Assembly: GCF_009649955.1 (NCBI RefSeq) | Contig: NZ_CP045875.1 | Location: 248,001-312,000, forward strand | From: Heliorestis convoluta | Lineage (GTDB): Bacteria; Bacillota; Desulfitobacteriia; Heliobacteriales; Heliobacteriaceae | Length of the DNA: 64,000 nucleotides | Reading direction: 5' to 3' | In this document: positions 2,512-60,410 of the stretch, one piece after another | Layout: each line of letters opens with the position of its first letter | How positions within the stretch are numbered: the stretch's first letter is position 1 | Notes under the pieces: generated by a model | Told to the model about the DNA's origin: nothing | The model's input: only the letters and a program-made list of their open reading frames with translations | Database searches by the model: none | Program-made: the position numbers and the translations under genes

Positions 2512-2558
2512 CGCTGAGGGGACCGTTTGTTTGTCACGCTTTTTTTAGGGGCATGACG

Positions 2559-2806
2559 AAAATAGCTACTTTGTGGTGGGGTCAGGCCTTATTCATTCCT
2601 TCCGAACGGACTCATCCCACGCCATGAGCGGCAGCGTAGCTGCCGATGGCTGAGGTCTGAAGTCCTCTCTCCAGGAATGAATAAGGCCTGACCCAGGTAC
2701 AGCTTGCTGGCGGTAACAGCGTGGGACCAGTCCAGAGCGGAGGAAAGCGTGATGACCAGTCCCCTGCACAAAGTTACCCCAACGTAATCAAGAAAAGTTA
2801 TTTTCA
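2559..2806 (+). repeat. Interspersed palindromic repeat, copy A (internally deleted)
   Basis: This copy begins with GAAAATAGCTACTTTGTGG, followed by a perfect 21-bp inverted repeat (2579-2599 with 2674-2694) enclosing a smaller hairpin CGGCAGC/GCTGCCG. It then jumps directly to the outer half of the second module (2703-2806). Compared with the full copies at 35.74, 42.24 and 59.99 kb it lacks about 170 bp; the junction lies at a CTTGCTGG octamer that occurs on both sides of the missing segment in full copies. It ends about 55 bp before glmM. A short half-hairpin (GGGGACCGTTTG) lies just upstream at 2518-2529. Confidence 0.85.
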
Positions 2807-2861
2807 TTTCTGGTATGTGCCATATAGGCACTTTGATTTATGATATAAGGAGTTCGAGTTC

Positions 2862-4202
2862 GTGGTAAAAAGATTATTTGGAACTGACGGTGTCAGAGGC
2901 GTGGCCAATCAAGAATTGACGCCGGAGTTGGCCTTCCGCCTAGGCCGTTCCGGTGCCTATGTCCTAGGGCGTGACATAGAAAAGCCCAAGATTGTAATTG
3001 GGAAAGATACAAGAATTTCAGGTGATATGTTAGAAGCGGCCTTGATCGCCGGCATTACCTCAGTCGGTGCCGACGTCTTAAAAGTTGGTGTCCTGCCTAC
3101 GCCAGGCATTGCTTTTTTGACAAGGCAGTTAGGCGCGACAGCAGGTGTTGTTATCTCAGCTTCTCATAACCCTGTAGAAGACAATGGCATTAAGTTTATC
3201 GGCGGCAACGGTTATAAGCTTTCCGATGCGTTAGAAGAAGAAATTGAACAACTTTGTGGACCTCACTCTACCTCGGACTTGCCTGCTCCTACTGGAACAG
3301 CCATTGGGCGGGTCTATGAAGTCGCTGATGCTGCTCAACAATATAGTGATTTTCTCCAGTCCACCATTCAAAGCGATCTTGCTGGATTGAAGGTAGTTCT
3401 AGATGGTGCCAATGGGGCAGCCTCACAAATTGCACCAAAAGTGCTCCAAGAGCTAGGCGCTGAAGTAATTACGCTACACTGCCAACCTGATGGAACGAAT
3501 ATTAACAAAGCTTGCGGATCGACCCACCCAGAGGACCTCTGCCAAGCTGTTGTAAAAGAAAAAGCCCATGTAGGCCTCGCCTATGATGGCGATGCCGATC
3601 GCTTAATTGCAGTCGATGAAAAAGGCCAAATCGTTGACGGCGATCAAATTATGGTAACTTGCGCCTTACATATGAAAGAGAAAAATGAACTTGTCAAGAA
3701 CATGGTAGCCCTTACTGTGATGAGCAATTTAGGGCTTCACATTGCTTTGAAAAAGGCTGGCATCGAGATAGTAGAGACCAAAGTGGGCGATCGCTATGTC
3801 TTAGAAGCACTGCGCGAAAAAGGTGCCATCTTCGGTGGTGAACAGTCTGGTCATATTCTCTTTTTACAACATAACACGACTGGTGATGGCATTCTAACAG
3901 GCTTACAATTGCTGGCCGTGATGAAAGAAAGGGGACTTCCTCTTTCCACACTAGCCGGACAAATGAACAAACTACCACAGTTGCTTGTTAACGTACGCGT
4001 CAAAGATAAAAGTTGCATGGACAATGAAACTGTCCAAAATGCCATTGCCAAAGGGCAAAAAACACTGGAAGGACGAGGTCGCATTCTTGTACGGCCTTCG
4101 GGGACAGAACCGTTGATTCGTGTCATGGGTGAAGGACCTGATCAAGAAGAGCTAACGGCAATTGTAGAAGAGATTGCCGATGTTTTTCGAAGCTACTGTT
4201 AG
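2862..4202 (+). CDS. glmM: Phosphoglucosamine mutase
   Basis: GlmM interconverts glucosamine-6-phosphate and glucosamine-1-phosphate in UDP-GlcNAc synthesis for cell wall. The 446 aa are typical for the family. The start '[12 protein letters not shown]', the phosphoserine loop '[15 protein letters not shown]' (catalytic Ser near residue 102), the metal loop 'DGDADR' and the sugar/phosphate loops 'GGEQSGH' and '[15 protein letters not shown]' are all present. GTG start with AAGGAG 9 bases upstream. It lies between cdaR and glmS, the usual Firmicute arrangement. Confidence 0.97.
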
Positions 4203-4369: not shown

Positions 4370-4566
4370 GCTGACAAAAGAAGAGATAGCGCCAGAGCCG
4401 CAAAAGGATCCGCGAAGATAGGGTTCATTGCGGTTGACGAGGAAGGGGATTATCGAAGGTTTCGGCGGATGCCCCTCGGTTGCTCACAGTCGATAGCAAG
4501 GTACACAAAGCCTGCAAGCAATTGCAGAGACAAAGAGCCTTGCAGTGGGTGTCAGGATAGCTGTGC
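4370..4566 (+). ncRNA. glmS ribozyme: glmS ribozyme (GlcN6P-activated self-cleaving riboswitch)
   Basis: The leader carries the conserved core of the family: AGCGCC at 4388-4393 (cleavage expected between A4388 and G4389), GCGAAG, GTTGACGAGG, TTATCGA and TTCGGCGGATGCCCC. A helix-rich 3' domain with CAAGCAATTGCAGAGAC follows. In this family glucosamine-6-phosphate is the cofactor for cleavage, and the 5'-hydroxyl mRNA is then degraded, lowering GlmS when its product is abundant. Position upstream of glmS fits. The 3' boundary is approximate. Confidence 0.95.
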
Positions 4567-35214: not shown

Positions 35215-35736
35215 TTGAAAGAAACAAAACTACGCAACGTGATCTTTCCCATCTGGTTTCTATGGTTTTTCCCACCCATTTTGCTAATCGCTCTTCTAGG
35301 GAACTTCATAATCGATAGTATTGTAATTGTAGCAAGCTTTATAGCTTTAAAAGTAAGTGCTATCACGGGTTTTACCATCAAAGAACTATACAAAAAAACC
35401 ATCGTGAAAGTCTGGGGCTTTGGCTTTCTTGCTGATATTATTGGGACTATTCCGCTATTAATTGGATTTGCTTTCGGCTTACGCCCTTTCCAAGTGCCAT
35501 CAGAAGTTGAAGTTGCTGTTATGATGAACCCTTTATCGAACTTTTGGGCTTTTCTGATTGTATTTTCTTGCATGGTTTTGGCATCGATATTTATATATCT
35601 TTTCAACTACCATATTACATACAAAGCGATTGTGGAAGATAAGATAGTAAGAGCGAAGCTGGCACTTATCTTGGCCGTTGTTACAACACCCTGGACCTTT
35701 TTGATTCCTAGTGAATGGTTCTACAGTGGATTTTAG
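35215..35736 (+). CDS. Integral membrane protein of unknown function
   Basis: The protein has 173 aa with about four hydrophobic segments (roughly 8-45, 62-86, 105-130 and 145-165). TTG start after AAAGGAAGG. It is not recognised as a named family. Its stop codon lies immediately before repeat copy B, so the 3' untranslated part of its mRNA would contain the repeat. Confidence 0.65.
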   Translation: MKETKLRNVIFPIWFLWFFPPILLIALLGNFIIDSIVIVASFIALKVSAITGFTIKELYKKTIVKVWGFGFLADIIGTIPLLIGFAFGLRPFQVPSEVEVAVMMNPLSNFWAFLIVFSCMVLASIFIYLFNYHITYKAIVEDKIVRAKLALILAVVTTPWTFLIPSEWFYSGF

Positions 35737-35739
35737 TCC

Positions 35740-36160
35740 GAAAATAGCTACCTTGTAGTGGGGTCAGGCGTTATGACTTCCTTCCGAACGGACTCATCCC
35801 ACGCCATGAGCGGCAGCAAGCTGCCGATGGCTAAGGTCTGAAGTCCTCTCTCCAGGAAGTCATAACGCCTGACCCAGATACATCTTGCTGGTTGTGACTG
35901 GTTTTGAGCCTATTGCAAATGCAATAGACAGTTGCGTATACATAGCAAAAAGTTACGCAAAGCTATTCCAACGGGAGTAACAATCAGCAAAAACTTTCTG
36001 GGCCTGGGCATCACGCTTTCCGCAGCGGGACTTGGGACCTCAGCGCATCAGTAGCTTGCTGGCGGTAACAGCGTGGGACCAGTCCAGAGCGGAGGAAAGC
36101 GTGATGACCTGGCCCCTCTATGAAGTAACCCCAACATAATCAGGAAAAGTTATTTTCATC
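35740..36160 (+). repeat. Interspersed palindromic repeat, copy B (full length)
   Basis: Module 1 is 35761-35875, with a perfect 21-bp outer stem (35761-35781 with 35855-35875). Inside it pair GGACT/AGTCC and CGGCAG-CAAG-CTGCCG. Module 2 is 36000-36115, with a 22-bp stem holding two mismatches, and it resembles the reverse complement of module 1. The spacer between them starts TTGCTGGTTGTGAC and ends GTAACAATCAGCAA, again an inverted pair. Ends are GAAAATAGC and the complement of GAAAATAAC. No ORF of note lies inside. Confidence 0.9.
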
Positions 36161-36197
36161 AAATGGTTGTGCCCAACCGGGCATGGAGGGTAATAAA

Positions 36198-42243: not shown

Positions 42244-42664
42244 AAGCTTTTCCTGATTACGTTGGGGTTACTTCATAGAGGGGCCAGGTCATCACGCTTT
42301 CCTCCGCTCTGGACTGGTCCCACGCTGTTACCGCCAGCAAGCTACTGATACGCTGAGGTCCCAAGTCCCGCTACGGAAAGCGTGATGCCCTGGCCCAGAG
42401 GGTTTTTGCTGATTGTTACTTTCCGTTGACATTGCTTTGCGCAACTTTCTGCGATGTATACGCAACTGCTTATTGTATTTGTATTTGCAATAGGCCAAAA
42501 CGCAGTCACAACCAGCAAAATGTACCTGGGTCAGGCGTTATGACTTCCTGGAGAGAGGACTTCAGACCTCAGCCATCGGCAGCTTGCTGCCGCTCATGGC
42601 GTGGGATGAGTCCGTTCGGAAGGAAATCATAACGCCTGACCCCACCACAAAGTAGCTATTTTCG
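42244..42664 (-). repeat. Interspersed palindromic repeat, copy C (full length, inverted)
   Basis: This copy is in reverse orientation to A, B and D. It carries both modules and the spacer. In the orientation of the other copies, the module 1 stem has a single C-to-T change that leaves a G-U wobble pair in RNA. The module 2 stem has only one mismatch, the internal one seen in all full copies. It fills almost all of the interval between the AEC transporter and the amidase, apart from 42665-42777. Confidence 0.9.
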
Positions 42665-59984: not shown

Positions 59985-60410
59985 AAAATAGCTACTCTGT
60001 GGTGGGGTCAGGCGTTATGACTTCCTTCCGAACGGACTCATCCCACGCCATGAGCGGCAGCAAGCTGCCGATGGCTGAGGTCTGAAGTCCTCTCTCCAGG
60101 AAGTCATAACGCCTGACCCAGATACATCTTGCTGGTTGTGACTGAGTTTTGGCCTATTGCATTGCAAATATACAATAGGTAGTTGCGGATAGAAGAAAGT
60201 TTCGCCAAGCTATTCCAACGGAAGTAACAATCAGCAAAAAACTTCTGGGCCAGGGCATCACGCTTTCCGGAGCGGGACTTGGGACCTCAGCTGTCGCCAG
60301 CTTGCTGGCGGTAACAGCGTGGGACCAGTCCAGAGCGGAGGAAAGCGTGATGACCGGGCCCCTCTATGAAGTAACCCCAACGCAATCAGAAAAAGCTAAC
60401 TTTCATCAAA
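59985..60410 (+). repeat. Interspersed palindromic repeat, copy D (full length)
   Basis: Same layout as copy B. The module 1 stem is perfect over 21 bp (60005-60025 with 60099-60119). Module 2 here has a perfect apical hairpin CGCCAG-CTTG-CTGGCG (about 60294-60310). The right end overlaps the last five codons and stop of the phosphoribosyltransferase gene on the minus strand, and shares TTTCATCAAA with copy B. Confidence 0.9.

Follow-up and report, generated by a model that had tools for sequence, protein, structure and literature searches.

Four copies of a hairpin repeat lie within the window, the 64,000-nucleotide stretch of the Heliorestis convoluta genome analyzed here (positions 248001-312000 of the 3,218,981 bases searched). 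In one of them, copy A, the outer stem carries different letters from its relatives in both arms at once. The question raised by this locus is what keeps the two arms matched: selection on a folded structure, as an earlier note on this DNA argued, or template switching between the arms, which the same note named as the alternative.

Architecture and spread of the repeat

Hairpin 1 of copy A (2579..2694, + strand) consists of an outer stem (2579-2599 and 2674-2694), a core, and an apical stem. Its arms, GGGTCAGGCCTTATTCATTCC and GGAATGAATAAGGCCTGACCC, are perfectly complementary over the 21-bp outer stem. The arms of copies B and D are GGGTCAGGCGTTATGACTTCC and GGAAGTCATAACGCCTGACCC. Compared with these, copy A is changed at arm positions 10, 15, 16, and 17, with a matching change in the opposite arm, and the coordinates and arm sequences given in the earlier note are exact. 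Copy C has a T at arm position 17 facing an unchanged G, leaving a single T.G pair. Against dinucleotide shuffles, the hairpin fold of copy A has a z-score of -8.8 on the + strand and -9.9 on the - strand.

The complete element is a composite of ~430 bp, formed by two homologous ~115-nt hairpins that are inverted relative to each other, and is palindromic as a whole. The composite of copy B (35734..36160, +), which served as the query, contains hairpin 1 at 35761..35875 (+) and its inverted homologue, hairpin 2, at 36000..36115 (-). The two hairpins are found at 42528..42642 (-) and 42281..42396 (+) in copy C, and at 60005..60119 (+) and 60247..60361 (-) in copy D. Copy A, which in its entirety spans 2552..2807 (+), is a deleted composite: the middle and the left half of hairpin 2 are gone, so that hairpin 1 is joined directly to the remaining right half (2701-2757), followed by the right end. 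It sits between two co-directional genes, the downstream of which we take to be glmM-like from its sequence; in H. acidaminivorans, the same pair of genes is separated by an empty 18-nt spacer. A strong Rfam match to the glmS riboswitch/ribozyme lies at 4377-4552 of the window.

The element occupies at least 84 loci in H. convoluta (59 composites and 25 solo hairpins, of which 13 are hairpin 1 and 12 hairpin 2), a lower bound that is based on retrieved stretches and excludes an automatic match at genome position 257299, dropped as a false positive within a gene. Most loci are intergenic. Cores with three or fewer mismatches number 71 for hairpin 1 and 74 for hairpin 2, and 28 nt are matched without mismatch in 71 of the 74 hairpin-2 cores. 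Each unit has a 20-22-bp outer stem, a bulged core of the form GGAC-nnn-TCCCACG ... TGAGGT-nnnn-AGTCC, and an apical stem. Identity across composites is graded, from 98.9% in core 1 and 96.7% in core 2, through ~95% in the outer arms and 86% in the middle, to 61-73% in the flanks. The element is short, multi-copy, non-coding, and built from inverted repeats, as MITE-like repeats are.

Other repeats accompany the element. One of ~60 bp (ATTTTCATC..GGTTGTGCCCGACCGGGCATGACTGGTTAGTACGAAAATAG), often tandem, flanks many of the hairpin elements on both sides, and its probe GGTTGTGCCCNACCGGGCAT has 68 matches in the H. convoluta genome, for example beside window 36140-36190. Another, GTGTCACGGGGACGTTTCGTTTGGCA, recurs at element flanks, as at window 2515-2540. 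No clear target-site duplication is seen in the flanks inspected, partly because copies sit inside other repeats. The hairpins of the window and 19 related loci have no Rfam match at the gathering score, and a permissive setting yields weak sub-threshold matches only. Phage and plasmid records contain no match to the element, and a search of heliobacterial genome papers turned up no description of the repeat.

Arm coupling and strand

Among 70 alignable copies in H. convoluta, the arms of hairpin 1 pair in 1420 of 1470 cells, compared with 1324±9 (maximum 1354) over 2000 shuffles of the arms among copies, a control that overstates independence because the copies are related. Both sides have changed at 8 of the 21 outer-stem pairs. 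Coupling holds at positions 10, 15, and 16 in all but two copies, one misregistered and the other, at 435905, with a broken A/B hybrid as its outer stem. Position 17 is uncoupled; the 3' arm mostly keeps its G opposite A, T, or C, and an A.G mismatch, present in 27 of the 70 copies, is the commonest state there. Hairpin 2 is weakly coupled (1438 of 1562 cells versus 1416±5 when shuffled), with stem positions 4, 6, and 9 mostly free. Across the genomic copies, the hairpin-1 arms are coupled overall but not uniformly intact: 33 stems lack a mismatch, 30 have one, 37 have at least one, and 18 of the 70 are perfectly Watson-Crick. The picture given by the four copies of the window is cleaner than the genome as a whole.

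The strand shared by copies A, B, and D had been proposed as the RNA that matters, with the G-U pair of copy C as the clue. This proposal is unsupported because the G·U bias flips between the hairpins (core strand to opposite strand, 154:77 in hairpin 1 and 10:49 in hairpin 2) and the orientation to genes is random. Wobble counts elsewhere (14:21, 5:9, and 5:6) favor neither strand clearly. Relative to tandem genes, the elements are oriented 17:20 in H. convoluta, without bias, and ~8:4 in H. acidaminivorans, a weak one, and divergent and convergent gene neighborhoods are common around the H. convoluta loci. The copy C pair is a poor clue to the strand, lying as it does at position 17, and the rRNA operons of Heliobacterium read the reverse complement of the core strand. 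Selection on RNA is possible, though the strand signals disagree.

Relatives and residence at 23S rRNA 3' ends

A covariance model of the core was searched against 83 genomes of the class, with filters that miss weak matches, and matches only H. convoluta, H. acidaminivorans (14), Heliobacterium chlorum (5), and H. mobile (5). The last three carry the same bulged core as H. convoluta with different outer stems, nearly all of them self-complementary. For 28 hairpins from the four genomes, the outer-stem score averages 15.4 with the hairpin's own partner arm and 6.2 with the arms of others. Within the core, both sides have changed in 9 of 23 pairs (22 distinct cores, four genomes), and the covariation score is 0.266 compared with 0.119 for shuffled and at most 0.094 for slid controls; the core bulges are conserved across genomes. 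Near-identical cores in H. acidaminivorans carry different outer stems, including single-site compensations. A T.C mismatch recurs in these outer stems, and the same mismatch is present in 50 of 71 hairpin-2 stems of H. convoluta.

Two sites are common to both Heliorestis species, each with a hairpin between the same genes and in the same orientation (H. convoluta hairpin-2 cores at 897451 and 373131). At each, the outer stems differ in sequence between the species and are paired in both. The site at 373131 adjoins an OLE RNA gene in both species (positions 749-1365 of locus extract L019 and 3882-4496 of L184). Such retention at orthologous sites is unexpected for a purely selfish element. At two further sites (991766 and 3122851) the species have the intergenic region alone in common, and these may be independent insertions.

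In H. chlorum and H. mobile, most hairpins lie ~20-40 nt 3' of the 23S rRNA, before tRNAs or a terminator; in the direction of the operon, the hairpin reads as the reverse complement of the core strand. Four of 15 23S 3' ends are occupied in H. chlorum and 5 of 16 in H. mobile, where the tally takes in a displaced 23S fragment; unoccupied ends have a 19-28-nt spacer. In other heliobacteria, the 23S ends inspected showed no hairpin. Filled and empty orthologous sites are thereby seen both for copy A, against H. acidaminivorans, and for 23S 3' ends. A 5S rRNA was considered as the unit 3' of the 23S and rejected, with no RF00001 match in L172-L180, as was a 23S intervening sequence proper, since the hairpin follows the 23S 3' end and is not within the gene. 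By eye, the left flank of the element suggests homology with the rRNA spacer, but the alignment scores no better than chance, 28.7% of shuffles being as good.

Several further features occur around these operons. The displaced fragment in H. mobile is a ~100-nt 23S 3' end with its hairpin, apart from an intact operon (L181, ~3867-3965). One rRNA spacer of H. modesticaldum (L226) has a core-less palindrome, TTTGATCGATCAAA, similar to the outer stem seen in rRNA hairpins of Heliobacterium. At the same position 3' of the 23S, palindromic inserts of other, apparently unrelated kinds are present in H. acidaminivorans (L231, L232, and L270) and in genome G004 (L258, L259, L262, and L263), and one unrelated insert contains GGGGTCAGACCCC. 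H. convoluta itself has 11 matches to the 23S rRNA 3' end, some as close inverted pairs; its genome paper gives nine rRNA genes in all (PMC7143216).

A probable mobile hairpin and its alternatives

The best explanation, to which we assign a probability of about 60%, is a family of small non-autonomous mobile palindromic elements of Heliobacteriaceae that spread as a composite in H. convoluta and are kept foldable. The outer-stem sequence would drift while complementarity holds. Two units in inverted orientation would have formed the composite before its spread through the genome, with movement probably provided by an enzyme acting in trans. The folded hairpin with its bulged core, as single-stranded DNA or RNA, may be what is recognized and selected, and single-site compensation and conversion between arms and copies may jointly yield the matched changes. 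Because the stems of the sister species differ yet still pair, the sequences suggest that what persists is the folded shape and the fixed core and not the lettering of the stem. The random orientation to genes is more easily reconciled with a mobile element than with a cis-acting RNA.

The view that structure is selected gains from the coupling within the genome and from the covariation in the core and across species, but conversion between arms is still viable beside it. That the matched changes arise mainly from arm-to-arm template switching or gene conversion between copies, with pairing a by-product of palindrome correction, is unlikely, and the evidence divides. Positions 15-17 change as a block whose sole intermediate is the hybrid at 435905, A-type stems are dispersed among B-type relatives when the middle regions are compared, and the chimaeric copy at 2796316 has a hairpin-2 apical stem within a hairpin-1 base; these make some contribution from conversion, between arms or between copies, probable. 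Against it stand scattered single-site compensations (T-A, G-C, and A-T at position 4, and those in the H. acidaminivorans stems), and mismatches at position 17 of hairpin 1 and position 9 of hairpin 2 persist uncorrected in many copies, and the conserved core bulges are not corrected to full pairing.

A cis-acting structured RNA selected for host benefit, such as an RNase III-cut hairpin in mRNA or rRNA processing or stability, is a still less probable reading. Where hairpins lie after the 23S and ahead of tRNAs or terminators, they are presumably transcribed with the operon, Heliorestis retains two sites across species, one of them beside the OLE RNA gene, and processing has precedents in NEMIS/Correia, ERIC, and 23S intervening sequences (PMC2229807, PMC4990558); yet the lack of orientation bias, the absence of a consistent wobble strand, the many divergent and convergent neighborhoods, and the absence of the hairpin from most rRNA operons all count against it. 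It is very doubtful that the core is the mobile part, inserting at the apex of pre-existing palindromes so that the outer stems are target sites and compensation is unneeded. Different self-complementary stems around near-identical cores in H. acidaminivorans and the core-less palindrome of H. modesticaldum would suit this idea, but outer stems within a genome have a diffuse consensus that includes the recurring T.C mismatch, and the sister genome has no palindrome at the copy A site.

REP/BIME elements with Y1 (RAYT) transposases are palindromes in composite inverted arrangements, as is the element here. The hairpins of ~115 nt are much longer than the 20-40 bp of REP palindromes (PMC3733652), and no Y1/RAYT gene was found beside any copy; the single Y1_Tnp match in the genome, at 2135424, is near none. 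Going by published descriptions, the nearest known kinds overall appear to be CIR, RPE, bcr1, and NEMIS/Correia (PMC2229807, PMC3446304, PMC2267715). CIR of Caulobacter and Brucella likewise has two long hairpin arms and a linker, is intergenic, and is conserved between genera (PMC2229807), whereas here the arms are homologous and inverted and the bulged core is different. RPEs of Rickettsia are dispersed palindromic elements of ~105-146 bp that also occur in RNA genes (PMC2229807), but their hallmark is in-frame insertion into protein genes, and the copies here are mostly intergenic. The bcr1-type repeats of the Bacillus cereus group are also MITE-like intergenic repeats in Bacillota, often lie within mRNAs (PMC3446304), and have a predicted common fold (PMC2267715); by description, they belong to a different organism and differ from the two-hairpin architecture seen here. 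For the rRNA location, the nearest kind would be the 23S intervening sequences, hairpin inserts with complementary ends in the rRNA precursor (PMC4990558), although the present hairpins are 3' of the 23S end and also dispersed outside rRNA operons. The element, apparently undescribed, would be a new member of the small palindromic mobile repeats, a placement based on the published descriptions of CIR, RPE, and bcr1.

A more specific and speculative history, which we regard as improbable in full, is that a structured-RNA or single-stranded DNA motif, its near-invariant bulged core read by a dedicated protein, began or settled as an rRNA-operon spacer hairpin, became mobile, and in H. convoluta multiplied explosively in the form of an inverted dimer. 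The favored reading, a mobile bacterial hairpin with changing stem letters and a constant fold, extends over dozens of copies in four species belonging to two genera. Change in the stem under a constant fold allows compensation to be told apart from arm conversion. With occupied and empty rRNA operons within one genome, the effect of the hairpin on 23S maturation is directly testable.
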